Origin: Veillonella nakazawae
GTDB taxonomy: Bacteria; Bacillota; Negativicutes; Veillonellales; Veillonellaceae
DNA length: 64,000 bases
Direction of reading: 5' to 3'
NCBI RefSeq assembly: GCF_013393365.1
Contig: NZ_AP022321.1
Location: 1,936,501 to 2,000,500 of the forward strand
The notes beneath the pieces are model-generated. The model was not told the DNA's origin. It did no database searches and saw only the letters and a list, made by a program, of their open reading frames with translations. A program made the translations under genes and the position numbers. The first letter of the stretch is position 1. Each line of letters starts with the position of its first letter. Positions 24,016 to 41,535 of the stretch are shown here, piece after piece.

Positions 24016-24038
24016 ACGTCTAGACGGAGGTAATAATT

Positions 24039-24837: not shown

Positions 24838-24843
24838 ACTTAT

Positions 24844-25291: not shown

Positions 25292-25293
25292 AA

Positions 25294-25575: not shown

Positions 25576-25588
25576 AAAAGCACCTCCT

Positions 25589-25619
25589 CATATACAAATT
25601 ATATCATAATTTGTATATG
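25589..25619. promoter_or_regulatory. Operator palindrome of the RelE/Phd operon
   Basis: CATATACAAATTAT and ATAATTTGTATATG form perfect 14-bp arms around three bases, directly upstream of the antitoxin ribosome site. A conventional autoregulatory site for this kind of toxin-antitoxin operon. Confidence 0.8.
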
Positions 25620-25637
25620 AATTGTGAATCACTAATC

Positions 25638-26135: not shown

Positions 26136-26158
26136 AGCGTCCTCCTTATAAAGAAAAT

Positions 26159-26187
26159 AGGCATGTGAATAATTACATCACATGCCT
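26159..26187 (-). terminator. Terminator closing the acidic-protein gene cluster
   Basis: AGGCATGTGA/TCACATGCCT stem with a T-rich tail on the minus strand, 60 bp after the DUF2695 gene stop. Confidence 0.8.
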
Positions 26188-26247
26188 TTACTATATACCT
26201 TTATGGTAACACCTGCAAATACATAGAATTAACTATAAAAAATACTA

Positions 26248-26541
26248 TTAACAGTACTCTTCAAAACGTTCCTCTACATTGTAGAGAACCTCGCAATCAC
26301 AACCGCCACCTTCGTTGATAATCCAGTCTAGTACGCTTTCAACATCTACCTTTTGTTTTTCTAAAAACTCTCTTGTGAAAGTCAGACTATGATCGCAACC
26401 GTCATTTGTTTCTAATTTCTCGTCTACATAATCAAAGAGATTCCAAAATAATTCTTCGTCCATAGGTAAACTATCTTTAAAATTCTGTTTTTCTTTAGCT
26501 TTATAGCCTTTCAATAATTCCTTTTTACGCGCTTTGTCCAT
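26248..26541 (-). CDS. DUF2695 family protein
   Basis: 97 aa. The C-terminal half has the family pattern DHSLTFTREFLEKQ and NEGGGCDCEVLYNVEERF, with Cys/His residues that may bind metal (CDHS, GCDC). The N-terminus is basic and helical (RKKELLKGYKAKEKQNFKDSL). Function unknown; it is the last gene of the co-directional cluster running down from 32.7 kb. A clear ribosome site (AAAAGGGAG) precedes it. Confidence 0.8.
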   Translation of the reverse strand: MDKARKKELLKGYKAKEKQNFKDSLPMDEELFWNLFDYVDEKLETNDGCDHSLTFTREFLEKQKVDVESVLDWIINEGGGCDCEVLYNVEERFEEYC

Positions 26542-26598
26542 TATGATTACTCCCTTTTATGTATTATAAGTTATAGCTCATGACTTATATCTCAAGCC

Positions 26599-27363
26599 TT
26601 ATTTCTCATATAATTCTGGTCGTTCTAAAACTGTGCCATATTTTAATTTTGGTAGTTTAACGAATTGAGGATACAACTGCTTAACCTCTTTACAAGATTT
26701 TAACGTAAGATGTTCTAGATTATTGAGTTCTAAAATGGGAGAGTAGTCTTTATCTATCACCTTTGCCGTTAAAAAGCTAAAAAAACGCAACTGTTTCATA
26801 TGGCGTAAAAATCCTAATGATTGAACCTTAAGAATTTTGGGCGATGCAAAATCACCTTCTAAGGCGAGACTTTCAAGATGTTTTAGATTAGCTAATGGCG
26901 TATAATCATCAATTTGTTGAAAGTTTTCAATCGACAGCGCTACTAAATTTACTAATCTGGAAATAGGATCTAAGCTCGATACACTTCTTCCGGACCCAAT
27001 ATGTAGGTATTCTAGTTCTTGTAAGTTCTCTAATTTTGAAATATCTGGATAAACGCCCCATTTTATATGTAATTTTTTGAGTCTCTGTTGGGCACACACC
27101 GCATCAAATAACTCCTGTGGCATTCTTGTACAAAACATGAGCTCTGTAAAATTATCTGGATGTTCAACTAAAAAATCACACCACTCCATCCAAATTCGCT
27201 TCTTATCTTTAGCAGAATAAGACTCATCTAACTGTGTGCAGTTGATTATCAGCTTGTCTTCACCATCATATTCAGAGACCTCTACCACAGATTTAGGCCG
27301 TGCGTCATCCTTATGATAGTAGTCAAAGCCATATTTAATTTGCTTTTCCGTTAACACTGCCAT
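26599..27363 (-). CDS. Leucine-rich-repeat protein
   Basis: 254 aa, soluble. From about residue 95 it shows degenerate leucine-rich repeats (LKKLHIKWG, LENLQELEYLHIGSG, LVNLVALSIENF, LKHLESLALEGDF, LNNLEHLTLKSC), a protein-binding solenoid. No signal peptide, so not a surface internalin. ATG 27363 follows GAGGAATTGTAAC and is preferred to an upstream start. In this gene block it could be an intracellular inhibitor, but that is inference. Confidence 0.75.
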   Translation of the reverse strand: MAVLTEKQIKYGFDYYHKDDARPKSVVEVSEYDGEDKLIINCTQLDESYSAKDKKRIWMEWCDFLVEHPDNFTELMFCTRMPQELFDAVCAQQRLKKLHIKWGVYPDISKLENLQELEYLHIGSGRSVSSLDPISRLVNLVALSIENFQQIDDYTPLANLKHLESLALEGDFASPKILKVQSLGFLRHMKQLRFFSFLTAKVIDKDYSPILELNNLEHLTLKSCKEVKQLYPQFVKLPKLKYGTVLERPELYEK

Positions 27364-27441
27364 GTTACAATTCCTCTTCTTCGCTAGTCGCATAATCAGT
27401 TAAGCTATAACTAGATCCATAACCAACAAATTTTAATGAAC

Positions 27442-27948
27442 TTAGCAAATCGATACAAGTACATGCCCATTAGTGTCTAGCACTTGTTTATAGAACACCT
27501 TCATCTGCTCGAAATCGTGGAGAATCTCATCTTTGATTTCCTCCTCTTCTTCGTCGTAGTCCCAAATATTTGGGTATAGTTCTGCTTCTTTGCAAGCAGT
27601 CATATCAAAAGATTCCAGTGCACTTTCAATATCAAATTGATCTAGAGCTGCCACGATATTGGCTAAATGATTGTGTTCTGTATATGCTACATAGTCTGAT
27701 ATATCCTCAACAGCCATTACGCCTAGTACCGCTTGGCTAAGAGGATTTTTATCGTCTTTATGGTCAGTGCCCACACCAGTTAGCACAAAGTGAAGTACAT
27801 CCCACATCTTGTCGATATCAAGCAATAATTCATCATCGTCATTCCACTCTTCAACGCTCTCAAGAATTTCCTCTTCTTCTGAGCCCATGGCTTTAAGCTC
27901 TTTTAAATTTACATCGCTTAAACAGCTATAATTGGCAATTAGTCCCAT
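27442..27948 (-). CDS. YfbM-like DUF1877 protein
   Basis: 168-aa acidic protein with the DUF1877 signature DIDKMWDVLHFVLTG and NPLSQAVLGV, and the C-terminal MKVFYKQVLDTNGHVLVSI. Homologues such as E. coli YfbM are small cytosolic proteins of unknown biochemical role that often sit in immunity-gene arrays. Neighbouring genes follow on the same strand with short gaps. Confidence 0.8.
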   Translation of the reverse strand: MGLIANYSCLSDVNLKELKAMGSEEEEILESVEEWNDDDELLLDIDKMWDVLHFVLTGVGTDHKDDKNPLSQAVLGVMAVEDISDYVAYTEHNHLANIVAALDQFDIESALESFDMTACKEAELYPNIWDYDEEEEEIKDEILHDFEQMKVFYKQVLDTNGHVLVSIC

Positions 27949-27979
27949 AATTAAATCCTTTCATAAACTCTTCTAACCA

Positions 27980-28522
27980 TTAGAAAAATAAATTTTCCGA
28001 TTCTGTAATACTTCCATCATCTTCATGGAAATAGCAGGTATATACAGGTTCACGATGCGCCGCATCATAGAATTTCTGTAATACAAGTGAAAGTTTCATG
28101 TCTATTGGCATATGTAAAGCTTTCACAATGGGTTCCCATAGTTCCATTGGCGAATAAGAGATAATCTGAGACTGCTTATTCTGACCATATTCTTCAAGTA
28201 CTGCCGCATCAGAATACTTACTTGAGTCACAGTAATCATGCCAACAAATACTAAAAACGATTAAGTGAAATAAATCGTCTATACTTTCAGCTAAACGGCC
28301 AGCGGCACCCTCGCTACTCCAATACCCTATGGATCCGTCCTCCAATAGATGATATTCACCGCCAGCGCCATCTACAGCAAATGCCATACCGGGCACAGAG
28401 AACGTGCAGCGACCTTCAGCCGTATCTCGTTCCTCCAACGCATCTAGCAAGCGAAAATCAAATAGTGTATCAAAATTTTCAGCTAACTTGGCATCATTTC
28501 GCAATATATCTAAATAACCCAT
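27980..28522 (-). CDS. Hypothetical acidic protein, possibly SUKH-like
   Basis: 180 aa. The segment GEYHLLEDGSIGYWSSEGAAGRLAESIDDLFHLIV recalls SMI1/KNR4 (SUKH) immunity proteins, where a displayed-status strand is followed by a helix with Ala/Asp; the rest is not diagnostic. No transmembrane or signal segment. It starts two bases after the end of the upstream gene, so the two are cotranscribed. Family assignment tentative. Confidence 0.55.
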   Translation of the reverse strand: MGYLDILRNDAKLAENFDTLFDFRLLDALEERDTAEGRCTFSVPGMAFAVDGAGGEYHLLEDGSIGYWSSEGAAGRLAESIDDLFHLIVFSICWHDYCDSSKYSDAAVLEEYGQNKQSQIISYSPMELWEPIVKALHMPIDMKLSLVLQKFYDAAHREPVYTCYFHEDDGSITESENLFF

Positions 28523-28523
28523 C

Positions 28524-29120
28524 TTACACGCTCCTATTAGCAGAAATTATTCCTAGCAATTTAGCCTCTCCTTCATCAGATGTATCTAATAGCGGAATAG
28601 CTAACAAAAGTACTTGCAAGGAGTAATAATAAAAGCTAAAGAATAAATCATCAGGGAATACGTCCTCTTCCTCATATCTAAGAACATCTTCGTCTTCATC
28701 ATATTCTTCCGACCAAAGGTATTCTTCGTTGAGCATATCTTCAAAGTTCGGCAATGGATCTGCATGCTCTAGCATAAGACCATCTCGAATGCACTCAGCA
28801 ATCACAACAAACAACTCAACCAATTGTTCTGCTAAATACTGAGCCACCTCATTATGAGCGCTCTCTTCCTGAGCTTCCTTAAAAATACGGAGCAAGAAAA
28901 TCATGGCAAATGGTGTAGCATGCCACAACGTCGATTGATGCTCAATATTCTGTGCTAACGCCTCACCAGCCGCATCAACAGTTTCCATGCTTTCCATGTT
29001 CCACAACACATCAAGTTCTGTAGGAAAGTCTGTAGCACGGCCATAGGTTGTGGTTAACCGATGCCACGGTATATCACTGACTTTTACCGTTTCTATATAT
29101 TGTTTCGTCATAGTATCCAT
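28524..29120 (-). CDS. Hypothetical acidic protein with DIPWHRL motif
   Basis: 198 aa, strongly acidic (EEYDEDEDVLRYEEEDVFPDD). The N-terminal VSDIPWHRLTTTYGRATDFP and later HQSTLWHATPFAMIFLLRI pattern matches a widespread group of helical-repeat cytosolic proteins found near polymorphic toxin immunity genes. Start ATG 29120 is behind AAAGG; the longer frame from 29183 would overlap the upstream gene. Function unknown. Confidence 0.6.
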   Translation of the reverse strand: MDTMTKQYIETVKVSDIPWHRLTTTYGRATDFPTELDVLWNMESMETVDAAGEALAQNIEHQSTLWHATPFAMIFLLRIFKEAQEESAHNEVAQYLAEQLVELFVVIAECIRDGLMLEHADPLPNFEDMLNEEYLWSEEYDEDEDVLRYEEEDVFPDDLFFSFYYYSLQVLLLAIPLLDTSDEGEAKLLGIISANRSV

Positions 29121-29172
29121 TATAGTTATACCTTTATATATACGCCCATGTAGAAACGCCTTCGGCCAATGA

Positions 29173-29979
29173 TTATTTCTCAATAACCGCTTTCACCAAT
29201 TCATAGGTATCTATAAGGCGAAGTCTACCTATTCTTGGCTCGTCTGTAATCTCCTCATAGATATCCTCAAGCGTTCTTCTTGGTGCTAGTGTCCATAATT
29301 TACACGGATATAGTTCAACTGTCCCGATAATTTCCAAATTATCCAGTAACAAGCCTAAGTCCTTATGATTAAACCAACAATCTGTATCGATACCAAAATT
29401 TGTATTATCTTTCCGGCATGCGATTTTGCTATTTAAAAATTGCTCCATCGTTGGTTTTTCTTCTTGTAAAAGCCGCGTACAGGCTAAATGATATTCGATT
29501 TTCCGCGGCGATTGATCCACGTCAGAGACGAATATAGCACCATACTTGTTTTCAAACTTAACAGCTAATACGTCCCCCATCTTAAAATGAGGTTCTCTCT
29601 TCGTTTTAGATTTACGAACCTTAACAGGCTTCGGATTTTCGCTCTGTAGCTGCAGGGCTAACTTATCTAATACCTTTTGACGCTGTTTAAGGGCCTTATC
29701 ATCGATTTCTAGCCAAAACTCATGAGGACCCTGAGCGATTATATCTAAGGCTTTCTGTTTAATGTCATCTGTTAGATGCCCTATCTTCCACAACGAATAA
29801 GCCACAGCAGTCCAATAAATCTCTGTGTAAAACTCATCAATGCAAAAATTTTGTTCTTCACTTAAGATTTCAGAAATTATGGTATCAACACTGACGCCAT
29901 CCTTGTACCGCTCAACAATGGCATTATAAATATCATGACCGTCATCACTATCTATGATTTTCACACCGTCAATTGCCAT
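29173..29979 (-). CDS. Hypothetical protein, Imm26-like C-terminal part
   Basis: 268 aa. An N-terminal helical half (DIYNAIVERYKDGVSVDTIISEIL, a YxxAIVWKLG-like ALWKIGHLTDD region) is joined by a basic linker (KPVKVRKSKTKRE) to a beta-rich half beginning FKMGDVLAVKFENKYGAIFVSDVD, the pattern of immunity-type domains such as Imm26. It lies in the same-strand acidic gene block. Assignment tentative. Confidence 0.55.
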   Translation of the reverse strand: MAIDGVKIIDSDDGHDIYNAIVERYKDGVSVDTIISEILSEEQNFCIDEFYTEIYWTAVAYSLWKIGHLTDDIKQKALDIIAQGPHEFWLEIDDKALKQRQKVLDKLALQLQSENPKPVKVRKSKTKREPHFKMGDVLAVKFENKYGAIFVSDVDQSPRKIEYHLACTRLLQEEKPTMEQFLNSKIACRKDNTNFGIDTDCWFNHKDLGLLLDNLEIIGTVELYPCKLWTLAPRRTLEDIYEEITDEPRIGRLRLIDTYELVKAVIEK

Positions 29980-29990
29980 ATGAATCTCCT

Positions 29991-30491
29991 CTAGGACTCT
30001 CGTAATGCCAGTAGTGCAAATACTTCGTCCATATCAAGATTAAACATGTTACTTTCAAGATTGATAGGTTCAAAATAGTAACGAACTGTATCTGCCCCAA
30101 ATTCATCGTTTAATTTAGCCCATTCTGCCCCTGAAAGCACGGTAAACCCAAGCGTATCGTTTCCAAGGCTTTCAGTAAACCAGCGTACCTCATAATCAGG
30201 TTTAACAAATTCGTTGAAGTATTTGATCGTTACATCCCGCTCTTTCTCATCACCGTAAGGAATTAAGAGTTCTTTATCGCCCTTTTGTAACACAATATCG
30301 TCACCATAGGACTTGCCATTACTAACGGTTTGAATGTCGATAGGTTCATCCATCATATCATTGAAATAGTTCACCACATCTTCGTCATCCTCGCGCCAAT
30401 CAATCCAGATAATAGCTTCAGAATCAAATAAATCAACTAAATCCATATCATGACTAAAGAAATCTTTAACTAATGTATACATATCTTCCAT
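29991..30491 (-). CDS. Hypothetical acidic protein
   Basis: 166 aa, very acidic and Asp-rich. It contains WIDWREDDEDVVNYFNDMM and YFNEFVKPDYEVRWFTESLGNDTLGFTVLSGAEWAKL, the latter typical of short phage-like or immunity proteins with no assigned function. ATG 30491 follows AGGAGAGAGACC and is preferred to an upstream in-frame start. Twelve bases before the next gene. Confidence 0.6.
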   Translation of the reverse strand: MEDMYTLVKDFFSHDMDLVDLFDSEAIIWIDWREDDEDVVNYFNDMMDEPIDIQTVSNGKSYGDDIVLQKGDKELLIPYGDEKERDVTIKYFNEFVKPDYEVRWFTESLGNDTLGFTVLSGAEWAKLNDEFGADTVRYYFEPINLESNMFNLDMDEVFALLALRES

Positions 30492-30562
30492 GGTCTCTCT
30501 CCTGCATATCACTTATATTTTTAGGTAGAATACAACACCAGTATCACCACTTTAATACAACT

Positions 30563-30994
30563 CTATAAGGTTTCATAAATCACATCTTGTTGAACCGTAA
30601 AGTTTTCATCAAAAGAAACCAAAACATATAGATGTCCTGCTGGGGATTCTCCCACATCATAGCCTAGTGCAAATGCATCGTAACAACCTGATTTATCTAA
30701 CATTATATCCGTTAGCATCAGTACAACAGACTCTTCTTGCGGTATTTCCTGTTGTATGAGTTCCTGTGCTAGTTGATCTAATTCATCTAATTCAACAGAT
30801 AATTGTTTCCACATTGGTAGTGAAAGCACCTCAACCTCAGTATAACTGGTGCAACTAATATTAAGTTTTTGAAAGGCTTGTCCTACCTTCTCTAAACAAT
30901 TAGTGCCCAATCTGCGAGATACAAAGTAAACGCCATACGGTTCTTCAGACCAGCTTTCAACATTCCATAATGTCATTAATTCCGATTTTCTCAT
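30563..30994 (-). CDS. Hypothetical protein
   Basis: 143 aa, no membrane segments. Features a WNVESWSEEPYGVYFVSRRLG N-terminus and SPAGHLYVLVSFDENFTVQQDVIYETL C-terminus. I do not recognise a family. The gap to the gene upstream is about 20 bp, so it belongs to the same transcription unit. Confidence 0.55.
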   Translation of the reverse strand: MRKSELMTLWNVESWSEEPYGVYFVSRRLGTNCLEKVGQAFQKLNISCTSYTEVEVLSLPMWKQLSVELDELDQLAQELIQQEIPQEESVVLMLTDIMLDKSGCYDAFALGYDVGESPAGHLYVLVSFDENFTVQQDVIYETL

Positions 30995-31014
30995 TAGGAT
31001 GCTCCATTAATTGA

Positions 31015-31830
31015 TTATCCTGCAATATCCGCATCAGTAGGATTTCCATCTGCATCAATATGAGCTATGATGCAGTGCCCCCAGAAGATATCGTCATCGT
31101 CATAATAGACCTCTATGGTGCCATCATTGCGAAACGCCAATTCTCCCATCGTAATACGCTTAGCAAATACGTCTGACGTAATCGGATCTTGGTCGTCATT
31201 GTCGAGCCAATAATTAGCGAGTTCTAACAAGGTCTCACTAATATAGGTACTAATTCGTTGTTCAAATGCTTTGAAATTATCGATTGTATTGAAAGTAGCC
31301 AATGCTACGGTACAGCTTTCATCAGAACCCTCATCCACATCAAGGGTGAATGCATAATCATCAATTCTGGCTGTGTAATATTGATACTCTCGATTTAACA
31401 GGAAATCACCCCTATCAGTATGAAGGTATTTAGGGGTTTTCAAATAAGCCGACAAGGCCTCTAACTCACTATGTTTAGCATGTTCCTCTAACACCTCAAG
31501 CACATAATAGCGATTATTCCAAGAAGGACGCATATAGCCCAAGTCCTCTAAAGGCTTTGCTTTCTTAACCAACAATTTGTAAACGCCATGGGGCTCAAAA
31601 GAATAACCCCATCTATCGTCAAGGCCCTCAATAATCCACGTCAAAATGCCTTCGCTACGGTCAAGCATACCAGTTCGAGTATCTAGGATAGCATCGGTGT
31701 CCACCAGTGGTCTATGGTACTTCTCTAAATAAGGACTAGCCCCATTCGCATCACTGCGTGGTAATGCATAAATTTCAAACTCTTCCGATTCAAACTCTGC
31801 TTCATATTCTGGTAGACGTACAATACTCAT
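31015..31830 (-). CDS. DUF2262-like protein
   Basis: 271-aa acidic protein. The C-terminal part (RITMGELAFRNDGTIEVYYDDDDIFWGHCIIAHIDADGNPTDADIAG) has the DUF2262 pattern; the N-terminal half contains FEPHGVYKLLVKKAKP, a segment common to DUF7021-type proteins that pair with DUF2262. Function unknown; family members are frequent in immunity-gene arrays. Confidence 0.7.
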   Translation of the reverse strand: MSIVRLPEYEAEFESEEFEIYALPRSDANGASPYLEKYHRPLVDTDAILDTRTGMLDRSEGILTWIIEGLDDRWGYSFEPHGVYKLLVKKAKPLEDLGYMRPSWNNRYYVLEVLEEHAKHSELEALSAYLKTPKYLHTDRGDFLLNREYQYYTARIDDYAFTLDVDEGSDESCTVALATFNTIDNFKAFEQRISTYISETLLELANYWLDNDDQDPITSDVFAKRITMGELAFRNDGTIEVYYDDDDIFWGHCIIAHIDADGNPTDADIAG

Positions 31831-31893
31831 ATGACTCTCTCCTATTTATCTCACATACAAGCAAATATATAACTAGTCTATAGCCTAACATCA

Positions 31894-32724
31894 TCATAAT
31901 CGCTCAGCTACATCGATTCTATGTAATAATTCTTTCGCTAGTTCTTTGGCTGTTTTAAATTCCTCATTTGAAAGCACCATAAGTACAAAGCTATCGGTTC
32001 CTGTGTCCATGCCTGCTAACGTATAGTTTTCCCACGTAGAATTAAGACTAGCACACCAGTCCATAATAACTTGATCTTCATCTAATGCTGCTGTATCAAT
32101 AGTTAGATTTTCTCTAGTATCTAAAGACTTATTACGTATTAACTTCTGTACATGATAAATAAAATCCTCTAGTTCACATTTACAGTCTAACTCTACGGCA
32201 TATCCTTTAGAGAGTAGTTCCTCATAGAAGTTCCACCAGCTATCTTCCAATTCTTCCAGGGAGCTCAACTTTACCTTGGTCATAAACGATTTAGCTTGTT
32301 TTGCATCGCCTAGCAACAACGTTGCTAATTCTGTAAATGTAGATCGCATCTGATCAATATCTAGATACACTGCTTCTACACATGAACTACAATCAGGTAC
32401 TCTGCGTTTTTTCATAAAAGCCCGCATCATCTTCACTGCGTCAGGATAACTTACATCAGCCATACGATAGGTCTTGCCATCTATATCTAAGAATAAATCT
32501 ACTGCATCCTGCGTTTTACCTACACGTGCTTTCATGGCTGTACATCCATCGATGGCATGAGGTGGGTATAACTCCATGTACATATAAAATCCATCATGCA
32601 TAGCCTTTAAGGTATTATCTATTCCGACTATATTAAAACCGTTTCCATTAGAACCAGGGCTCTTCAAGCGCCATTCTTCGAAATTATCAAATAGTTTTTC
32701 TTGAATCCAATTGTAAAAGCTCAT
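31894..32724 (-). CDS. DUF6630-like protein
   Basis: 276 aa. The C-terminal part ends in SLNSTWENYTLAGMDTGTDSFVLMVLSNEEF, similar to DUF6630 domains (a WE..L...D..SDSYVL pattern). The N-terminal half is unassigned. ATG 32724 is preferred over a GTG two codons earlier; GGGGGAGAG lies upstream. First gene of the block of ten, so the cluster promoter should be in 32725-32860, which is AT-rich with repeated ATATGTAACT-like words. Confidence 0.6.
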   Translation of the reverse strand: MSFYNWIQEKLFDNFEEWRLKSPGSNGNGFNIVGIDNTLKAMHDGFYMYMELYPPHAIDGCTAMKARVGKTQDAVDLFLDIDGKTYRMADVSYPDAVKMMRAFMKKRRVPDCSSCVEAVYLDIDQMRSTFTELATLLLGDAKQAKSFMTKVKLSSLEELEDSWWNFYEELLSKGYAVELDCKCELEDFIYHVQKLIRNKSLDTRENLTIDTAALDEDQVIMDWCASLNSTWENYTLAGMDTGTDSFVLMVLSNEEFKTAKELAKELLHRIDVAERL

Positions 32725-32861
32725 ATACACTCTCCCCCATATACTGTTGCTTACATATAATGTTTAGCTGACTATGTAACTAATATGTAACCGAATATGT
32801 AACTGAATATATATCTTAATTATATCATTATTAAGGAATACTTATAATAAAAGCATAATAT

Positions 32862-32906: not shown

Positions 32907-35051
32907 TTATTTAGATTCTAATTTAGCTGCTAATTCACTATATTTTTGTGCTAGTTCATTATACTTTTCAGCTAAGTCTTTCATATCTTTCTTAAGTTGT
33001 GCAGCGTCTTCAGTAGTTACCTCTTCAGAGCTTTTACCAAATTTGAAATTAGCACCTAAGCTAATAGAATTACGGCCGTTACCAACGGTAGTAGCCGCAT
33101 TAAACATTGTGTTTTTATTAGGGCGATAGAACGCACCTAACGCCGCTGCATTAGCATTTTTATAGTTACCAAAGCCAACGGAGTAGGACCATTTATCATG
33201 TTTATCGAAATCTAATGGATGCAAGCCAGCGAGTGCTGCAGAAGCCGCTGCTACGCTAGATACTTGTTGATCAGTGTAGGATTTAGCTTCATTTAAGCTA
33301 TTAGCGCCACCATTAACAATACGATTATTTAATGTATTAATATCGCCTTCTATGGTAGTGATACGGTTTTCATGATTATCTACCACGTCTTTAATGGCAT
33401 GTAATTGGGACCCATTGACTGCATCAGTAGAGGTTGCAGATACACGGCCTGCTGCTACATTTGTAATGGTACGTTCTGCACCACTATCACCAATACTCAA
33501 TGTACCAACCGCATTTCCTCCAGCAAAACTATATGTTCTGCCGCCGATTATACCGGAACTAGTAGATACAGCTGTATCAGTAACAGACTTAGCACCTAAC
33601 GCGATACTATTATCTGTAGCAGCCTTCGCATTTGTACCAATAGCGATGGAATTTTCATTAAGAGCTTTAGCTGCATTGCCTATTGCTGTAGCATTCTTGC
33701 CAGAAGCCTCTGCGACAAAACCAATAGCATTGGATGCAAAGCCTGTCGCTTTAGAGAGGCCAATCGCATTAGCGGCTCTGCCGGACGCTACGGAAGACAC
33801 ACCAAGTGCTGTAGAATATGTATCAGATGCTTGCGCATTATCACCGATAGCAGTGGATTGAGCACCAGTTGCTTTGGAAATAGTACCTACTGCAGTACCA
33901 CCCCAGCCAGTTGCTACAGAGTCAGTACCGATGGATACGGCTAATTCATCAGCCGTCGTATTTCTACCAATTACAATACTACCTGCCTTAGCAATATTAG
34001 CTGCTTTACCGATAGCAATAGAATCAACGCCATCTACAGTCGCATTCGTACCGATAGCGATGCCATTTTCCTTTGTTGTAGTTGCGCTATGACCGATTGC
34101 TAAAGAGTCCTTTTCTGCTGCGTTAGCTAATGTACCAGCAGCAAAGGCACTTTTACCAGCACTAGTAGAATAGTTGCCTAATGCTACAGAGTCCTCATTA
34201 GAAGCTGCAGTTTTAAAGCCCAATGCGGTAGAATACGCACCGCTAGCATTTGCATAAGATCCCACTGCAGTTGTATTCATAGCAGTTGCTTCCGAATTGA
34301 AACCAAATGCAGAGGACTGATTACCAGAACCTGTGGAGCTATAACCTACTGCTGTAGCGTAATCATTTTTTGCTTTTGCATTATAGCCAATCGCTGTGCC
34401 CATAATGTTATTGGCCTTTGCATTATTACCAATAGCAACTGTATTTAGAGCAGTTGCTTCTGCTTTACGACCAATGGCATACGCATCATCGCTTGTTGCT
34501 TTCGCAGTATCACCAAAGGCGATAGCATTATTGCCTTGCACCTTAGCACCAGTACCACCTACCAAAGCATTATTACCTTTAATGGTATTATTCTTACCTA
34601 AAGCCACAGAGTCATGTCCGTCAATACTATTATATGAACCAACTAATAAAGAATTAATTGCATTGTCATTATTGGCATGGCCAAAGCCGCCTACGATATT
34701 ATTAGTACCACCAACAGTATTGCTAGTACCTACTACCAAGCTGTGAGTAGCAGAGTTTGTATTATACCAACCTGCTACGATACTCCCTGGGCCAGATACA
34801 GTATTATTAGTACCAGAGGTGATAGTATCATTAGCGGAAGGTCGAACGGTATTCTTGTCGCCACCAAGCAATATATTTTTTACAGGGGAGAACATACCCT
34901 GCTCAACTTTATTATCCCCACCATAGGCAATAGAATTTTGCATGCTTAGTGGCGCAGCAGTTGTAGCACTAATATCTAAATTAGATGCTGCAAAGGCTGT
35001 AGTAGTAATACTTGCGGTAATCATAGCCGTTAACAGTAATTCTTTTTTCAT
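32907..35051 (-). CDS. Trimeric autotransporter adhesin (YadA/Hag-like)
   Basis: 714-aa surface adhesin. Signal peptide at 1-21 (MKKELLLTAMITASITTTAFA). A head of about 400 residues is made of 14-residue YadA head repeats of the form SxAxGxxAxA (e.g. NSIAIGTNAKA). Then a neck (ATSTDAVNGSQLHAI), a short coiled-coil stalk, and the YadA anchor barrel (GLHPLDFDKHDKWSYSVGFG ... NSISLGANFKFG). Odd: about 45 residues follow the barrel, including a coiled coil (LKKDMKDLAEKYNELAQKY), whereas most YadA anchors end at the last strand. Start ATG 35051 behind AAAAGGGGAAACC. Short compared with giant Veillonella adhesins. Confidence 0.93.
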   Translation of the reverse strand: MKKELLLTAMITASITTTAFAASNLDISATTAAPLSMQNSIAYGGDNKVEQGMFSPVKNILLGGDKNTVRPSANDTITSGTNNTVSGPGSIVAGWYNTNSATHSLVVGTSNTVGGTNNIVGGFGHANNDNAINSLLVGSYNSIDGHDSVALGKNNTIKGNNALVGGTGAKVQGNNAIAFGDTAKATSDDAYAIGRKAEATALNTVAIGNNAKANNIMGTAIGYNAKAKNDYATAVGYSSTGSGNQSSAFGFNSEATAMNTTAVGSYANASGAYSTALGFKTAASNEDSVALGNYSTSAGKSAFAAGTLANAAEKDSLAIGHSATTTKENGIAIGTNATVDGVDSIAIGKAANIAKAGSIVIGRNTTADELAVSIGTDSVATGWGGTAVGTISKATGAQSTAIGDNAQASDTYSTALGVSSVASGRAANAIGLSKATGFASNAIGFVAEASGKNATAIGNAAKALNENSIAIGTNAKAATDNSIALGAKSVTDTAVSTSSGIIGGRTYSFAGGNAVGTLSIGDSGAERTITNVAAGRVSATSTDAVNGSQLHAIKDVVDNHENRITTIEGDINTLNNRIVNGGANSLNEAKSYTDQQVSSVAAASAALAGLHPLDFDKHDKWSYSVGFGNYKNANAAALGAFYRPNKNTMFNAATTVGNGRNSISLGANFKFGKSSEEVTTEDAAQLKKDMKDLAEKYNELAQKYSELAAKLESK

Positions 35052-35234: not shown

Positions 35235-35956
35235 AACCACCCGTAGAACGGGTGGTTTGCTCTGACCCTATAAGGGTCTTTCTCTAGTGGTGGCCCTCTA
35301 AAGAGGGCATTGAATGATCTGACAACCACTCTATTACCACTGGCTGCCCCCTACTCGGGGGCTTTTGTTTTGCCTATTTTACTGGCTCACCCGTAAACGG
35401 GTCGGTGTATTCTTTAAAGTTTAATGTATCTTGCGCTATATCCTCTTGTAGTTGATTGCGAATATACTCTTTTATCGCTCCTTCATATCGTCCTACCGTA
35501 TCCACATAATATCCTCTACACCAGAAATGTCTATTTCCATACTTATATTTTAAATTTTCGTGTTTATCGAATATCATGAGGCTACTTTTGCTTTTTAAAT
35601 ATCCCATAAAACTCGATACGCTTAAATGTGGTGGTATCGTTACTAGCATATGAATATGATCCGGACAGCATTCCGCTTCTATAATCTCTACATTTTTCCT
35701 CTTACATAAATCTCGTAAGATTTTACCTACATCAACTTTTATCCGACCATAAATTATTTGTCTTCTATACTTTGGAGCAAAAACAATATGATATTTACAT
35801 CTCCATTTACTATGTGATAAGCTTTTTACGTCATTCATTGACATTGAACCTCCTATGTTGAAATGTTGTGGTTGCCAGACCAACTTCATTCTATCATTAG
35901 GAGGTTCTTTCCTTTTCTCTAAGAATTTTTACCAACCCCCAGTTTAACTGGGGGTT
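35235..35956 (-). mobile_element. IS200-like element (IS200/IS605 family)
   Basis: A single tnpA with subterminal hairpins instead of inverted repeats. Right-end side hairpins: AACCACCCG/CGGGTGGTT at 35235-35257 and GCCCCC/GGGGGC at 35346-35362. Left-end hairpin: AACCCCCAGTT/AACTGGGGGTT at 35934-35956. No target duplication is expected. Exact ends are not certain within about 20 bp. It stands next to the cas9 terminator, so it interrupts nothing visible. Confidence 0.8.
35374..35844 (-). CDS. tnpA: IS200/IS605-family transposase TnpA
   Basis: 156-aa HUH single-strand transposase (Y1). The HUH motif reads CCPDHIHMLVTIPP, and the catalytic Tyr lies in GAIKEYIRNQLQ; KYRRQIIYG and RHFWCRGYYVDTVG are family hallmarks. 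ATG 35844 follows AGGAGG. GAACCTCCTA (35846-35855) pairs with TAGGAGGTTC (35898-35907), sequestering the ribosome site, a known way of keeping TnpA low. No accessory TnpB. Confidence 0.93.
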   Translation of the reverse strand: MSMNDVKSLSHSKWRCKYHIVFAPKYRRQIIYGRIKVDVGKILRDLCKRKNVEIIEAECCPDHIHMLVTIPPHLSVSSFMGYLKSKSSLMIFDKHENLKYKYGNRHFWCRGYYVDTVGRYEGAIKEYIRNQLQEDIAQDTLNFKEYTDPFTGEPVK

Positions 35957-35980: not shown

Positions 35981-36022
35981 AAAAGAAGGCATACGGCTTT
36001 TATAAGCCGTATACCTTCTTTA
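35981..36022 (-). terminator. Terminator of the cas operon
   Basis: Stem AAGAAGGTATACGGCTT/AAGCCGTATGCCTTCTT with TTTTTT on the minus strand. It probably ended the original cas9-cas1-cas2 operon. Confidence 0.85.
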
Positions 36023-36043
36023 TATGATATTTTTTAATCAAAA

Positions 36044-36156
36044 TTATTTACTAAAAAATAAATCACTTATCTCTTTATAATTTCTTTCAAATAGACTACG
36101 ATTAACCAATCATTTGATACCGACTCATCTTATATAATAATTGTCCGCCAACCCAT
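36044..36156 (-). pseudogene. cas1: Remnant of cas1 after cas9
   Basis: Twenty-one bases after the cas9 stop, behind GGGAGAGCACATT, the frame at 36156-36130 reads M-G-W-R-T-I-I-I-stop. MGWRT plus hydrophobics is the usual N-terminus of type II Cas1. What follows, up to the operon terminator, is only about 110 bp with no cas1 or cas2 core. A 20-codon open stretch ending at 36044 (NRSLFERNYKEISDLFFSK) could be the C-terminal tail of a deleted downstream gene. This looks like an internal deletion of the adaptation genes. Confidence 0.7.
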
Positions 36157-36176
36157 AATGTGCTCTCCCTGCAACA

Positions 36177-39100
36177 TTAAATCGTAACATCAAATTCTAG
36201 CTTTTCACCCATAACTTTATATTTATTACCTAATACATCAACATTGAATTTAGTTAAATTCTTTAAAGAGGTTTTCACAGATAGCCGTTCTTGTTTATTT
36301 GTAGGTCGATCTATATACGAAATTTCTATTTTATGTTCCTTCTCACTATTCATACATTTAAATATACAACTTAAAACTTCTCCTTTATATTCGTAAGATA
36401 TAAAATCTCCTCTATAAAGAGACATAATAAACTTAGCTTTCTCTGATATACTCTGATTTTTTTTAGCCTTATAATACTGATCTTGATTAATTAAATACTT
36501 TCCATTTATAAATTGGACCATATCATATGGTACATTTAGTACTAAATAGTTATTCCCTTCTTGATAAATATCTGTACGTAAACTTTTTATCTTCAAGAAT
36601 ACAGATTTATTATGTCCTTGCTGTTTTGTATTAACACGATGAGCACCTAATTGTTTATCGCGGAATTTAACTGATTCAATAATTGGACCATTTCCTCTTT
36701 TTGAATATTTACGAATTGGCCCATGATCTTCTTTATAAGCTGCAAAGGGATTAGATTCGTCTCCATATTGTTCTACAATCTTTTGAAAAATCTCAAAAGT
36801 TTTAGGATCATGGTGATACATCAACAATTTATCAGGAGACTCTAAAATCATTTTTTTTAGTTTGCTTCCAACATTACCAGCACCTGTATTATAAATATCA
36901 CTATATTTAGTGATAATATAGGTCACTTCTTTATTATCTTCAACAAAGCTTCGAGTTGCTTTTATCTGTTGATCATATAAAGCTCTATTAGGTTTACGAT
37001 CTACCTTATGAGAATATAACGGTTCTATACGTTCAATATGTTTTAAGAACTGAATATAGTTAGATACATTCTCTGATTTATCAAATAATTCTTGTTCTAG
37101 TACTTCGCCTGTTTCAGAATTTATAATATTACCATCTACCTCTACAATAGATTCCTTATTATTCAAACTTTCCGAGAAGGCACCTATTTTCGAGAAAAAT
37201 TTTATCAGTTTCGTATTAGCAAAACCAGCAATAATCATAGCATCTTGTGCATGATGAGCATATGTTTCTTCTCTATTTTTTGATAGGTACGCTTTTTTTC
37301 TAAAGTAACTTGTAGCAGAACCATTTATAACTTTAACATTAGTATTTATATTATGGTAATCAAAAAAGGATTTTAATAAATTATAGGTTTCACGTGATGC
37401 ATAACGTGTATCGACCAAATTGCGATCAATAAAGCCTTTCATATCTTCAACTGGATTTCCAAGATACAATAAGTTTCTCTTCTTAGCATTACTAAAATTC
37501 GAGTTTCTAATAACATATTCTTTAAATATTTCAAAAGCTATTTCTGCTTTACCACTACTGAAATATTGGAATGGTGACCGTTGGCCTTTCGCTTGATTTT
37601 CTTTCTGATATACAAGAACTTTATTAGACTGAGCATCACTTAGAGATATAGATAAAGGAATAATATGATCAACTTCTAAAAGGCCTGCTTTAAATACATC
37701 AGATAACTCTATAGGCTTTAAAGAATATGCGCATTTAAAATCCTGTTCTAACAATAAACTAATACGTTCAAGCTCTGCACGCGTAAGCTTCCTGTTTTCA
37801 ACAAGTTCCATGATTTTATAGCGTTTTTCCTCATTAGCCTTCTGAATTTTCTTAATCAGATCTTTCTTTTCCTGACTATTTTTTTCTCGTGCTAATTCAA
37901 CTACTACATCACTAAATTCAGCGTCATCTCCATTTTGTTTTTTAAGATATTTACGCAGTGCATTAAATACCTTAATAGTCTCATTAATAGAGCGTTTAAC
38001 AACAGGTGATACAATCCAATCAGATAAATTAGCACATAACTGATTGTTCTGTGAAAAGTTATGATTATATGGCTTTATACCTGCTTCAGTATATAGTTCT
38101 ATTTGGTTCTTACTAGTTCTCAATAAATCATCTAAGATTAAATTAATAGCCTTAAATGATAAAGAATGATATGTAGTAAAACCTCCCGATTTTGCAATTT
38201 CTTTAGCTAAACTAGTAGATAATTTTAAATCATCTACTAATTTTCTTTCACGAACTTCTATACTTTTTTCTTTAGTTAGAATTTCAGATGTATCATCTAC
38301 TAATTGTTTATTACCTTCAATTGTAGCTTCTTCGTTTACAGATTTTGCAATTTTTAATAACTCGTTGTAACCTTCAAATTTTGTAAAAACTGGTTTTTCC
38401 GATTTATCTATTCTAAAGCCAAAAATATCTTCCTTTTTAACACCACATACTTTTGCAATAGCAGGAATCGTTACTGATTTACCTTTATTTACATACTCAT
38501 TAATCAACTCTTGTTTCTGAGCTTCAGTTATCTTTATACCTTGAAGCGTTAAATTATTTAAATCATTTAACAAATTAAATAAGCATGCACTATAGCTCCA
38601 TTTAGGTGCTCTTAATTCATTAGGAAAATATGTACACGTACCACGCATTTTATCAATCAAATTAATCTTAATGACATTACCATTTTCATCTAATTGGTAA
38701 CTTCCATAAGGTGTAGGACTTTTATAACTACCGGGCCCCTCATAGTACTCACGTTTAGAGTCATATATACATAAAACCTCATCTGTTATCCCTTTTAATT
38801 TTGGATAAAATGATGATTGGACCTCAAGAAGCTTAATTAATTCACTACGATACGATTCATGAGTAAACTTATTTTCAATACCTCGTACTGTTCCCGTAGT
38901 GTTCAACTTCTCTAACTGAACATGACAAGGATAAATTCCATCCATAAGTTTATTCTCATTATTTCGGATAATATCTGCTGAACTTCGATTACTTCCGTCC
39001 TCAGTAGCAAGATCCTCTGGACTCAGATAAAAGATACCTCTATGTTTTGCCAATTGAATGATAACAGCTACCAATTCATCAGGCAAAAGCTTATTACTAA

Positions 39101-39371
39101 GTCCTCTAACTCTAATTTCATAAAGATTTGTATAAGACTTATTTCCACTTACCCCTAGTACATTTGACAAGAGTTCTTTTAATCGCTCTAATCTATGATG
39201 ACTCCGCCTCACACCTCTACGACTACTTCTGAACCCTCTACGTGCTACATTCTCTTCTGCCATTCCTTCTCGAAATAATCTTACCCCACTAATTAGAACA
39301 TTATAGTTTTCATCAATAATTGCATAACCAACAGAAGCAACCCCGATATCTAATCCCAGTATATATCCCAT
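36177..39371 (-). CDS. cas9: CRISPR-associated endonuclease Cas9 (compact, type II-C-like)
   Basis: 1064-aa RNA-guided DNA endonuclease; length fits type II-C. RuvC-I Asp8 in MGYILGLDIGVASVG; the Arg-rich bridge helix at about 44-70 (RRGFRSSRRGVRRSHHRLERLK); RuvC-II Glu492 in VVVELARE; HNH His569 in LLEVDHIIPLS with the CAYS Cys before it; RuvC-III HHAQDAMIIA with His706/707 and Asp710. All catalytic residues are present and the frame is open throughout. AGGAGAGGG precedes the ATG. Base composition is AT-richer than the core genes. cas1/cas2 are lost downstream, and an IS30 copy sits 40 bp upstream, separating the gene from its likely native promoter; expression is uncertain. Confidence 0.97.
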   Translation of the reverse strand: MGYILGLDIGVASVGYAIIDENYNVLISGVRLFREGMAEENVARRGFRSSRRGVRRSHHRLERLKELLSNVLGVSGNKSYTNLYEIRVRGLSNKLLPDELVAVIIQLAKHRGIFYLSPEDLATEDGSNRSSADIIRNNENKLMDGIYPCHVQLEKLNTTGTVRGIENKFTHESYRSELIKLLEVQSSFYPKLKGITDEVLCIYDSKREYYEGPGSYKSPTPYGSYQLDENGNVIKINLIDKMRGTCTYFPNELRAPKWSYSACLFNLLNDLNNLTLQGIKITEAQKQELINEYVNKGKSVTIPAIAKVCGVKKEDIFGFRIDKSEKPVFTKFEGYNELLKIAKSVNEEATIEGNKQLVDDTSEILTKEKSIEVRERKLVDDLKLSTSLAKEIAKSGGFTTYHSLSFKAINLILDDLLRTSKNQIELYTEAGIKPYNHNFSQNNQLCANLSDWIVSPVVKRSINETIKVFNALRKYLKKQNGDDAEFSDVVVELAREKNSQEKKDLIKKIQKANEEKRYKIMELVENRKLTRAELERISLLLEQDFKCAYSLKPIELSDVFKAGLLEVDHIIPLSISLSDAQSNKVLVYQKENQAKGQRSPFQYFSSGKAEIAFEIFKEYVIRNSNFSNAKKRNLLYLGNPVEDMKGFIDRNLVDTRYASRETYNLLKSFFDYHNINTNVKVINGSATSYFRKKAYLSKNREETYAHHAQDAMIIAGFANTKLIKFFSKIGAFSESLNNKESIVEVDGNIINSETGEVLEQELFDKSENVSNYIQFLKHIERIEPLYSHKVDRKPNRALYDQQIKATRSFVEDNKEVTYIITKYSDIYNTGAGNVGSKLKKMILESPDKLLMYHHDPKTFEIFQKIVEQYGDESNPFAAYKEDHGPIRKYSKRGNGPIIESVKFRDKQLGAHRVNTKQQGHNKSVFLKIKSLRTDIYQEGNNYLVLNVPYDMVQFINGKYLINQDQYYKAKKNQSISEKAKFIMSLYRGDFISYEYKGEVLSCIFKCMNSEKEHKIEISYIDRPTNKQERLSVKTSLKNLTKFNVDVLGNKYKVMGEKLEFDVTI

Positions 39372-39447
39372 ATATACCCTCTCCTAATAATCATTAATTT
39401 TATTAATACATGATGAATTGTAAAATATATTGCGACAAGTAAAAAGA

Positions 39448-39516
39448 CTCATATTGGAGATCTCGTGTAAAATGTAAATAACCACAAATACATGACACGG
39501 AGGTCTCTAATATGAG
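39448..39516 (+). promoter_or_regulatory. Hairpin masking the IS30 transposase start
   Basis: CTCATATTGGAGATCTCGTG (39448-39467) is complementary, with few mismatches, to the segment 39495-39516 that contains the ribosome site GGAGGT and the ATG. Transcripts that begin outside the element would fold and hide the start, limiting transposase made by read-through. Confidence 0.7.
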
Positions 39517-40450
39517 CTACATACATCTTACCATAGAAAAACGAAGTCAAATAGAAGTTTTACGAAAAGAAGGATACTCTGTTCGTAGAATTGCTAGCTT
39601 AATCGGTGTCCACCATTCTACTGTAGCAAGAGAATTAAATCGCGTTAAAGGTGAATATTCTGCGATTAAAGCTCAACAGTTAGCAATTAGTAAGTCTGCT
39701 AATAAAGGTAGACCAACAAAGTTAACCCCTCAATTAGCGGCTTTAATTGAATCCAGGTTACAACAAACTTGGTCTCCAGAAGAAATAGTTGGTTCTGAAT
39801 TAGTTGGGGTTCTAAGCTTTAAAACAATATATTCTTGGATCCATCGTGGTTTTCTTGCTGTAACAGAGAAAGTACTTCGCCGGAAAGGCAAAAAACCTGG
39901 TACTCAAGAAAAGCGTGGACGCTTCAATGTGAAAAAGACCATTAAGGACCGACCTCAAGAAGTTGAAAACCGGGAGACTTTTGGTCATTGGGAACTAGAT
40001 ACAATGGTGTCTTCCAGAGGTCAAAGTAAAGGGTGTTTAGCTACATTTGTTGAACGTAAAACTCGATTCTATATAGCAATAAAGATGGATGACCGATCTA
40101 AGGATTCTATGTTTTTAGCTATTAGTTCCCTATACAACACATTAACAAGTAAATTACTTAAAACCTTTACCGTGGACCGTGGTAAAGAATTTGCGTGCTT
40201 TGAACAGGTTGAAACCGAGTTTGGGATACCGATGTATTTTGCTGACGCCTATGCAGCATGGCAACGTGGCTCTAATGAAAATAGTAATGGTTTACTTCGA
40301 GAGTTTTTTCCTAAGAAAACCGATTTAGCTAAAGTAACACTAGATAAACTAACAGAAGCACTAGTGCTGATTAATAATCGACCGAGAAAATGCCTTGGGT
40401 TTAAAACACCATTTGACATGTTTAAACATGAGATTAGAAAATTGATTTAG
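39512..40450 (+). CDS. IS30-family transposase
   Basis: 312 aa. The N-terminal HTH (MSYIHLTIEKRSQIEVLRKEG, then SVRRIASLIGVHHSTVARELNR) binds the ends; the DDE core shows HWELDTMV (Asp), FTVDRGKEF (Asp) and QRGSNENSNGLLREFFPK (Glu). Intact frame. Transcribed against cas9. Confidence 0.95.
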   Translation: MSYIHLTIEKRSQIEVLRKEGYSVRRIASLIGVHHSTVARELNRVKGEYSAIKAQQLAISKSANKGRPTKLTPQLAALIESRLQQTWSPEEIVGSELVGVLSFKTIYSWIHRGFLAVTEKVLRRKGKKPGTQEKRGRFNVKKTIKDRPQEVENRETFGHWELDTMVSSRGQSKGCLATFVERKTRFYIAIKMDDRSKDSMFLAISSLYNTLTSKLLKTFTVDRGKEFACFEQVETEFGIPMYFADAYAAWQRGSNENSNGLLREFFPKKTDLAKVTLDKLTEALVLINNRPRKCLGFKTPFDMFKHEIRKLI

Positions 40451-40486
40451 TTTTGTCGCATTACTTATTGCAATTCATCACATAAA

Positions 40487-40492
40487 ATTATA
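40487..40492 (-). promoter_or_regulatory. Likely original cas9 -10 box, cut off by IS30
   Basis: TATAAT on the minus strand, with TG-rich DNA upstream but no good -35. The start point predicted from it lies within a base or two of the IS30 junction. Confidence 0.4.
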
Positions 40493-40522
40493 ACAATCAG
40501 AAAATCATTATTTTTTACTCTA

Positions 40523-40947
40523 GATTTATCATAAGCAACAATCATAAAATACTAAAACCTTGTGTAAGTGAACACTCTTAATGGTATTTTTAATCGAAAA
40601 TTACAAAGTATTAAAACAAGCCGTTTTTGAATTTTGACCTCACAAAAGACTTATCATAGCGAAAAATTACAGAGTACTAAAACAACCCAACCTATATAGA
40701 ATTGAATATTATTGTTTTATCATAGCGAAAAATTACAGAGTACTAAAACAATCAATCTCACTATATCGAACTTCCAAAAGTTTTATCATAGCGAAAAATT
40801 ACAGAGTACTAAAACTGCTGCATTTTGTCCATTTGTACAAAGTCAGTTTTATCATAGCGAAAAATTACAGAGTACTAAAACATGCTCCGCTGTCTAAATT
40901 AATGTCATGTCGTTTTATCATAGCGAAAAATTACAGAGTACTAAAAC
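40523..40947 (-). CRISPR. Type II CRISPR array, seven repeats
   Basis: 36-bp repeats (plus strand GTTTTATCATAGCGAAA...GAGTACTAAAAC) at 40714, 40780, 40846 and 40912 are identical; that at 40648 has two changes. 40583-40617 and 40523-40558 are decayed (the last about 28/36 identical). The five spacers next to intact repeats are each 30 bp. Decay at the low-coordinate end and the tracrRNA strand both place the leader at the high end, so crRNAs are read on the minus strand, repeat starting GTTTTAGTACTCTG. Near the repeat's 3' end TATGAT precedes the spacer by five bases and could serve as an internal -10, as in Neisseria II-C arrays. Confidence 0.95.
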
Positions 40948-40967
40948 CTCAACAACGAAGTTATGCA

Positions 40968-40995
40968 CCTTTGTAAGCTTTCGCTATAACAAAAC
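40968..40995 (-). ncRNA. Second, truncated anti-repeat beside the array leader
   Basis: The minus strand reads GTTTTGTTATAGCGAAAGCT followed by TACAAAGG. It matches the 5' half of the tracrRNA anti-repeat (GCGAAAGGTTACA) better than the array repeat, but lacks the lower-stem half and the nexus. It lies 20 bp from the first repeat and would be in the pre-crRNA leader, where it could pair with the 3' half of a repeat. Probably a fragment of a duplicated tracrRNA. Confidence 0.6.
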
Positions 40996-41000
40996 ATAAA

Positions 41001-41174
41001 CAAAAAGAGCACAGATCATAAGACCTGTGCTCAAAATTTCACACAAAAACATTAGTAATATGTACTACTAACTCAATTTACATATACTATTGTTAATAAC
41101 TACTTAAAAGTAGTGATTTCGACATAAAGTCTTATTTTAGTAGATTCTGTAACCTTTCGCTATGGTAAAATCTA
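41001..41174 (-). ncRNA. tracrRNA
   Basis: The anti-repeat is at 41171-41135 on the minus strand (ACCATAGCGAAAGGTTACAG, then AATCTACTAAAAT) and pairs with the crRNA repeat along nearly its full length, with a bulge (C against AUC) eight pairs from the repeat start. A nexus hairpin GAC-UUUAU-GUC and a second hairpin ACTACTT/AAGTAGT follow. The RNA ends at a terminator with stem GAGCACAG/CTGTGCTC (41007-41032) and TTTTT. Length about 170 nt. Upstream is a consensus promoter. The plus-strand alternative has no such tail or terminator. Confidence 0.92.
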
Positions 41175-41179
41175 ATTAC

Positions 41180-41208
41180 ATATTATATCAGTATTACTTA
41201 TATGTCAA
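41180..41208 (-). promoter_or_regulatory. tracrRNA promoter
   Basis: Minus strand TTGACA (41208-41203), 17-bp spacer, TAATAT (41185-41180); a TATAAT two bases earlier gives a 15-bp spacer. Start expected near 41174. Confidence 0.85.
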
Positions 41209-41307
41209 CACTTTCTAATTTTTATTCATCAATTCATTATATTTTTATCAAATAACCTTAATTACTCTATTATTGTCTTCATAAAAAGATAATTTAAAAT
41301 AATCAAA

Positions 41308-41410
41308 AGAGGAAAAGGACACAAATAAATTGTGTCCTTTGATTTCGGCATAAGGCCCTACCTTAATAGATTCTCACGAGTATTAAGGCGAAACTGCAGC
41401 TCTATCCTAC
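41308..41410 (-). ncRNA. Natural single-guide-like RNA behind tRNA-Arg
   Basis: Directly after the tRNA CCA, minus strand in order: a 21-nt guide-like segment (41410-41390); repeat-like GCCTTAATACTC (41389-41378; array repeat GTTTTAGTACTC); GUGA tetraloop (41377-41374); anti-repeat-like GAATCTATTAAGG (41373-41361; tracrRNA GAATCTACTAAAA); nexus GGC-CUUAU-GCC (tracrRNA GAC-UUUAU-GUC); the same CGAAATCA linker; and an 11-bp terminator stem AAAGGACACAA/TTGTGTCCTTT. Over 34 aligned positions, 27 equal the tracrRNA and the other seven are transitions, several compensated in the paired strand. Likely co-transcribed with the tRNA. Function inferred, not shown. Confidence 0.8.
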
Positions 41411-41487
41411 TGGTGCGCCTAGAGGGAATCGAACCCCCAACCTACAGTTTAGGAAACTGACGCTCTCTCCGGTTGAGCTATAGACGC
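41411..41487 (-). tRNA. tRNA-Arg (anticodon CCU)
   Basis: 77 nt including encoded CCA. Acceptor GCGTCTA pairs with TAGGCGC; D arm GCTC/GAGC; anticodon loop TTCCTAA gives CCT, reading AGG; T arm GGGGGTTCGATTCCCTC. The 27-43 pair is a T-T mismatch. Followed without gap by the single-guide-like RNA, which ends at the only visible terminator, so both share one transcript. Confidence 0.95.
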
Positions 41488-41498
41488 ATGTATACTTT

Positions 41499-41528
41499 AT
41501 TATATCGTTTTTAATAAAGTATACGCAA
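41499..41528 (-). promoter_or_regulatory. Promoter of the tRNA-Arg/guide-like RNA unit
   Basis: Minus strand TTGCGT (41528-41523), 18-bp spacer, TATAAT (41504-41499). An inverted repeat GTATACTTTATTA/TAATAAAGTATAC (41490-41524) overlaps it and may also act as terminator for plus-strand transcription. Confidence 0.7.
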
Positions 41529-41535
41529 GGCGTCC

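Follow-up and report, generated by a model that had tools for sequence, protein, structure and literature searches.

A predicted natural single-guide RNA behind tRNA-Arg(CCU) in Veillonella, with a guide matching the rival allele at its site of insertion

At what target would a single-guide RNA (sgRNA) made by nature direct Cas9? The question is raised by a 64,000-nucleotide stretch of Veillonella nakazawae DNA (contig NZ_AP022321.1, positions 1,936,501 to 2,000,500; hereafter the window), in which an sgRNA-like element lies beside a type II CRISPR (clustered regularly interspaced short palindromic repeats) locus. The element occupies the minus strand at 41410-41314 and begins directly 3' of the CCA of the gene for transfer RNA (tRNA)-Arg(CCU) (41411-41487, minus strand; called by ARAGORN, 66 bits as an Rfam tRNA). 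Read along the minus strand, the CCA is followed by a 21-nt guide (GTAGGATAGAGCTGCAGTTTC, 41410-41390), a repeat start (GCCTTAATACTC, 41389-41378), a GTGA loop, an anti-repeat (GAATCTATTAAGG, 41373-41361), a nexus (41357-41347), the linker GAAATC, which closes the scaffold (41389-41341), and a terminator-like hairpin with an 11-bp stem (41340-41314). By its sequence, this layout of guide, repeat start, loop, anti-repeat, nexus and terminator resembles that of an engineered SaCas9 sgRNA, with all parts present in one stretch and a scaffold that matches the local CRISPR RNA (crRNA) and trans-activating CRISPR RNA (tracrRNA). An earlier reading made without database searches (the sequence-only reading) had described the element in this order and place; both were as claimed, and the arrangement recurs in Veillonella parvula SKV38.

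Compared with the local RNAs, the element was identical to the tracrRNA core at 26 of 33 positions (GAATC to GAAATC) and to the start of the array repeat at 9 of 12. The alignment had previously been given as 27 of 34, a figure that did not survive our recount; the accompanying statement that all differences are transitions did, for all 10 scaffold differences from the local tracrRNA and repeat. Four base pairs were altered on both sides relative to the local RNAs, three in the repeat:anti-repeat stem and one in the nexus, bearing out the covariation already reported for the duplex and the nexus. In an ungapped scan of both window strands with the tracrRNA core, the element ranked next after the tracrRNA itself (26/33, followed by 21/33). 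The 77-nt scaffold had a predicted fold of -27.1 kcal/mol, against -12.7 ± 2.7 for shuffled sequences (z -5.4; 0 of 200 shuffles as good), and its bracket pattern was that of the local repeat:anti-repeat plus nexus model, in which the two RNAs were connected by an artificially added loop, except for a shortened upper stem. Because of the tracrRNA match, the paired changes and the fold, we regard the sgRNA-like element as real at the level of sequence and predicted structure.

We searched 14 genomes of the genus, V. parvula SKV38 among them, for the element and for its Cas9. The element was found in SKV38 alone, behind the same tRNA and with its stems kept. A close relative of the window cas9 (92% identical) was likewise present in this one genome, three others giving weak partial matches, and the element was not seen without cas9 among the 14. 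Between the window and SKV38, the sgRNA differed in 2 of 100 alignment columns (guide position 20 and one insertion or deletion in the loop), against 22 of 104 in the downstream stretch (Fisher p 1.4e-5). In a wider search, a short-loop SaCas9-type sgRNA pattern gave matches in 5 of 380 genomes of the class, and by eye only that of SKV38 reads as an sgRNA. A 20-mer of the scaffold had no match in viral_contigs, and the element had none in the plasmid collection and one 29-base match, at E 0.4, among phages. Genome G057 carries a 51% identical Cas9 with no tRNA in the 20 kb read at its locus. The protein collection contains many full-length proteins that are 84-92% identical to the window Cas9. 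The predicted fold, the paired changes, the conservation in SKV38 and the co-occurrence with an intact cas9 thus agree with the sequence-only reading that this is a natural, tRNA-linked single guide.

The likely target of the guide, overlooked in that reading, is tRNA-Arg(CCU) in its ancestral allele. With at most 3 mismatches allowed, the last 18 bases of the guide matched tRNA-Arg(CCU) in 13 of the 14 genus genomes; G002 had no comparable tRNA match and was left out, so the locus was compared in 13. The guide corresponds to the D-loop-to-anticodon part of the gene in a form that we call A. It agreed at 20 of 21 positions with the tRNA of six genomes (G001, G004, G005, G008, G010 and G012; mismatch at position 9, counted from the side of the protospacer adjacent motif [PAM]), at 19 with that of G011 (mismatches at positions 15 and 20) and at 18 with that of G007. 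The resident tRNA of the window, which we call B, fitted the guide at 15 of 21 positions, with mismatches at positions 8, 9, 15 and 19-21 from the PAM side, the first two of them within the seed. The tRNAs of SKV38, G006 and G009 are this B allele letter for letter, and those of G003 and G014 are close relatives of it with the same score. At equal base frequencies, the chance of at least 20/21 anywhere in a 77-nt gene is ~2e-9. Sites with at most 2 mismatches to the guide were found in 23 of 61 genomes of the order: in seven Veillonella tRNA genes, the SKV38 sgRNA, 14 further genomes of the family and G040. These 14 are all of the non-Veillonella family genomes, the gene context having been read within Veillonella; B-type sequence was present in 5 of the 61, all of them Veillonella. 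As the A type is family-wide and the B type confined to the genus, we infer the former to be ancestral and the latter derived.

The site at which the island stands is that same gene. Counted from the start of the tRNA, position +6257 of the window aligned to +125 in G001, G011 and G012, and the hairpin region that follows the tRNA in these genomes reappeared in the window at ~36021. This alignment indicates that the island was inserted directly behind the tRNA and that the sgRNA hairpin stands, as judged by eye, in the place of the post-tRNA hairpin of other species. As far as sequence comparison goes, this is a conserved, predicted natural sgRNA with a guide that matches the competing allele of the site where the element itself is inserted.

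The resident allele stands out from its background. The window tRNA was identical to the common ancestral allele of G001 at 61 of 77 positions, and the 800 bp upstream were 92.5% identical to the same genome. In a tree of the flank (1.15 kb, eight genomes, G011 falling in neither group), A and B carriers were interleaved with all five inner branches supported; the tree forces at least 3 allele changes, and A and B were no more clustered than shuffled labels, although recombination within the flank could also disturb such a tree. All B-type alleles are without pair 27:43 (T.T, C.T or C.C in place of G-C), which lies beneath seed position 8 of the guide.

Different Veillonella genomes carry different cargo at the 3' end of tRNA-Arg(CCU), which makes it a hotspot. 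Apart from the CRISPR-Cas9 island, this position is occupied by a type I restriction system in G006, by MmeI-like type IIG enzymes in G003 and G014, by McrBC-type genes in G008, by the candidate-defence ATPase PDC-S01 in both G005 and G010, and by a barstar-like open reading frame (ORF) in G009; PADLOC gave no family for the ORF immediately following the tRNA in G001, G011, G012, G004 and G007, nor for the first two ORFs in G009. Of 6 loci with restriction or CRISPR genes, 5 had the derived allele, against 1 of 8 others (p 0.026); with PDC-S01 loci counted as cargo, the figures were 5 of 8 against 1 of 6 (p about 0.14). We give this association little weight, because G002 was dropped, G009 was scored as cargo-free and the rows are not independent, the window and SKV38 sharing their island.

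Whether Cas9 could cut the target depends in part on the PAM, for which we used the SKV38 spacers, accepting no more than 1 mismatch among the last 10 bases of a site and no more than 8 overall. Six sites were kept for four spacers (0-6 mismatches in all), and three shuffled spacer sets gave none. Their flanks (TTAACA, ATTGCC at two sites, ATAGGC, ATAAGC and TGTAGG) suggest A or T at +3, A or G at +4 and C or G at +5. Three weaker sites fell outside this filter: two of them (CATACT and CGTACA) agree with the inferred motif throughout, and the third (GTAATC) agrees at +3 and +4 but not at +5, as does the tRNA flank. The SKV38 array had no match in INPHARED at E 0.1, and five single-spacer scans of viral_contigs gave four empty results and one match, with a flank equal to a known one. 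The flank of the sgRNA gene itself, GCCTTA, fits none of the three positions, so this gene should escape cutting. Only its mismatches would spare the resident tRNA, the flank of which is identical to that of the target.

We propose that the guide is site-directed: Cas9 would be aimed at the alternative allele of the place where the island is inserted. This would work against loss of the island through transformation and might also promote its copying. In our judgement the case for this proposal is evenly balanced. Natural competence is described as common among V. parvula isolates, including SKV38 (PMC5397411, as far as its available text goes), and transformation is described as tending to remove inserted elements, which mobile elements counteract (PMC4774983, likewise from part of the text). 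In the proposed sequence of events, the tRNA and the sgRNA would be transcribed together from the tRNA promoter. A putative promoter (TTGCGT-18-TATAAT, 41499-41528, minus strand) was spotted by eye and is absent from the list of our consensus scan, which listed no promoter-like site on the minus strand between it and the sgRNA. Maturation of the tRNA 3' end would then free the guide near the CCA, with 21 nt or with a 5' extension, and Cas9 would cut A-type alleles and spare the resident B allele. Recombinants that had taken up foreign DNA with the ancestral tRNA in place of the island would be killed or reverted; in an ancestral-type cell newly entered by the island, copies still lacking it would be cut and then preferentially repaired with the island-bearing copy as template. 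As the surviving gene, the derived tRNA would be a linked, cut-resistant rescue. More tentatively, and with doubt outweighing belief, we consider that the island may be gene-drive-like, its Cas9, tRNA-linked guide and cut-resistant tRNA together converting or eliminating empty-site alleles in competent populations and leaving resistant alleles behind after loss.

Several points weigh against site-directed cutting. No 21/21 target of the guide was found in any of the 61 order genomes, the common ancestral allele itself carrying the mismatch at position 9. The flank of the tRNA target, CTAAAC, fits the PAM at +3 and +4 and lacks C or G at +5, and the PAM rests on four spacers, six sites and five different flanks. 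The derived allele occurs without the element in G006 and G009, and relatives of it do so in G003 and G014; because of G006 and G009, the B allele may predate the guide. Conversely, G008 has the ancestral allele alongside its McrBC-type genes. Transforming DNA enters the cell single-stranded, and tRNA-Arg(UCU) can read AGG, so that tRNA-Arg(CCU) may be non-essential. Finally, the carriers of the element are at least two, the window strain and SKV38, and no others were seen; this number is a floor, because the genomic surroundings of the numerous Cas9 relatives could not be seen.

Among other explanations, the guide could be a hard-wired defence against the tRNA-Arg(CCU) genes of phages and mobile DNA, a conserved target, the host tRNA having been altered against self-cutting. 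This is unlikely, even though viruses carry tRNA genes: by eye, 5 of 5 IMG/VR matches of AGGATAGAGCNGCAGTTTC were tRNA genes of viral contigs, and phage records 60-90% identical numbered 253 for the derived and 208 for the ancestral tRNA, mostly tRNAs of various kinds among the ten listed for each. None of the five viral tRNA genes has the T of the guide at the variable position, however, and among the matches listed, 0 of 122 viral exact matches of the last 14 bases of the guide continue with AAACTGC. No Veillonella phage with such a gene was seen, though no separate search for one was made. A defence guide also leaves unexplained why the fit is to an allele of the island's own insertion site.

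The element might instead be a relic of autoimmunity, in which a spacer derived from the cell's own tRNA-Arg joined a copy of the tracrRNA, an allele that could not be cut took the place of the tRNA, and the sgRNA is now near-idle. The guide could indeed be a truncated spacer; CA is common to the tRNA and the junction upstream of the guide (GCTCA/GTAGG against CACCA/GTAGG), and the anticodon stem is less well paired in the derived allele. A near-idle RNA is hard to square with the retention of the sgRNA relative to the sequence beside it (2 of 100 against 22 of 104 columns), with the paired stem changes relative to tracrRNA, or with a cas9 frame that outlasted the loss of cas1 and cas2, and we think such an origin improbable.

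We see still less reason to favour regulation, in which Cas9 with this RNA would bind a partly matched promoter, that of cas9 or another, and repress it without cutting. The precedent is tracr-L, a natural single guide that represses a cas promoter and for which, in the text available from PMC11417352, an 11-base match is enough. The sequence-only reading had suggested control of a chromosomal gene and offered as a lead a match inside an adhesin gene (34202-34214). That match is at chance level (16 sites with at most 3 mismatches, 13.7 expected), and neither the window nor the 19-kb CRISPR region of SKV38 has a seed match of at least 8 bases other than the guide itself. Elsewhere in SKV38, ten matches of 10-11 bases all lie inside ORFs and agree with the guide at 10 to 16 of 21 bases, so the promoter-proximal targets that had been anticipated were not found there; the remaining chromosome of the window strain was not searched. 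That there is no guide RNA at all and the resemblance is due to chance is scarcely credible, in view of the fold (z -5.4), the 26/33 identity to tracrRNA with four two-sided pair changes and the recurrence in SKV38.

The genes around the element belong to a Cas9 island with an approximate extent of 36022-41410 (minus strand) by alignment to the empty-site genomes G001, G011 and G012. The tracrRNA gene, with anti-repeat, nexus and terminator-like stem (41090-41170, minus strand), is identical in the aligned SKV38 stretch and is preceded by a promoter-like TTGACA-17-TAATAT (41208-41180, minus strand); the sgRNA is a separate copy of its core, 226 bp upstream of it. The CRISPR array (40523-40947, minus strand) has five clear 36-nt repeats, 30-nt spacers and degenerate repeats at its far end. 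An IS30-type transposase gene (HTH_38 and rve domains; 39512-40450, plus strand) stands between the array and cas9 and is not there in SKV38. cas9 (36177-39371, minus strand) encodes 1064 amino acids in a full-length frame with RuvC and HNH catalytic motifs kept; its product is SaCas9-like, with best PDB matches at E about 1e-172, for example 5axw and 7enr, which we take to be SaCas9 structures. Next to cas9, the window has lost cas1, apart from a stub of its start (36130-36176, minus strand), and cas2, which follow cas9 in this order in SKV38; despite this loss, cas9, the tracrRNA and the sgRNA appear intact. In SKV38, cas2 is followed by a 302-aa ORF (L157:5984-6892) without Pfam or NCBIfam match, where a csn2-type gene would be expected. 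Larger, only distantly related Cas9 proteins, with open frames of 1354-1432 aa, were present in G007, G009 and G010 (L004-L009). In the window and SKV38, the -10 region of the putative tRNA-Arg promoter lies between the halves of a 13-bp inverted repeat (GTATACTTTATTA / TAATAAAGTATAC, window ~41488-41530), the right half of which is present at 9 of 13 genus loci compared. Just outside the island lies an IS200-type transposase gene (35374-35889) that is not behind the tRNA in G001, G011 and G012. Past the adhesin gene, a run of small ORFs (19183-32730; DUF6630, DUF2262 and others) has homologues at shifted places in other Veillonella.

A literature search by title and abstract start gave no description of such an element among the matches listed. 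If the site-directed reading holds, this may be the first natural case of Cas9 aimed by a built-in single guide at an alternative allele of its own chromosomal site, and it would join CRISPR immunity to homing and to the conflict over deletion by transformation. The element would also supply an SaCas9-like enzyme with a natural sgRNA that is linked to a tRNA and has a GNRA loop, and the key claims are testable in SKV38, which is genetically tractable and naturally competent.

Known systems share parts of this arrangement. Like the element, tracr-L of Streptococcus pyogenes, as described in the available text of PMC11417352, joins guide, repeat-like part and tracrRNA scaffold in one RNA for a type II Cas9; it is, however, a longer transcript of the tracrRNA locus, and the element is encoded separately, after a tRNA gene, and its duplex is shortened and capped by GTGA. 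Unlike that of tracr-L, its 21-nt guide matches the tRNA allele of sister species, and neither a promoter target nor a cas-promoter seed match of at least 8 bases was found in the window or the CRISPR region of SKV38. The scaRNA of Francisella novicida Cas9 is an off-array RNA partner too, a regulator that works with tracrRNA, whereas the element is predicted to be a self-contained single guide. The delocalized crRNAs of CRISPR-associated transposons of types I-F and V-K, according to the part of PMC11656645 available, also place a partly repeat-like guide outside the array with a home site near a tRNA gene. Those systems differ in that neither the window island (cas9, IS30-type transposase) nor that of SKV38 (cas9, cas1, cas2, 302-aa ORF) has Tn7-like transposition genes, the effector here is a nuclease-type Cas9, and the resident tRNA is changed so that the guide fits the other allele better. 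Cleave and Rescue (PMC7951863, in its available part) combines, as the island does, Cas9, a guide that matches a wild-type gene and a linked copy that diverges at the target (here 20/21 against 15/21); that system is engineered, and the island is natural and bacterial. Homing endonuclease genes encode a site-directed cutter, stand at their own target and make the occupied allele resistant; similarly, the island starts at the 3' end of a tRNA gene, and the stretch matched by its guide belongs to that tRNA gene in sister species. Unlike them, the island is RNA-guided, and its resistance would come from a divergent tRNA allele instead of insertional disruption.
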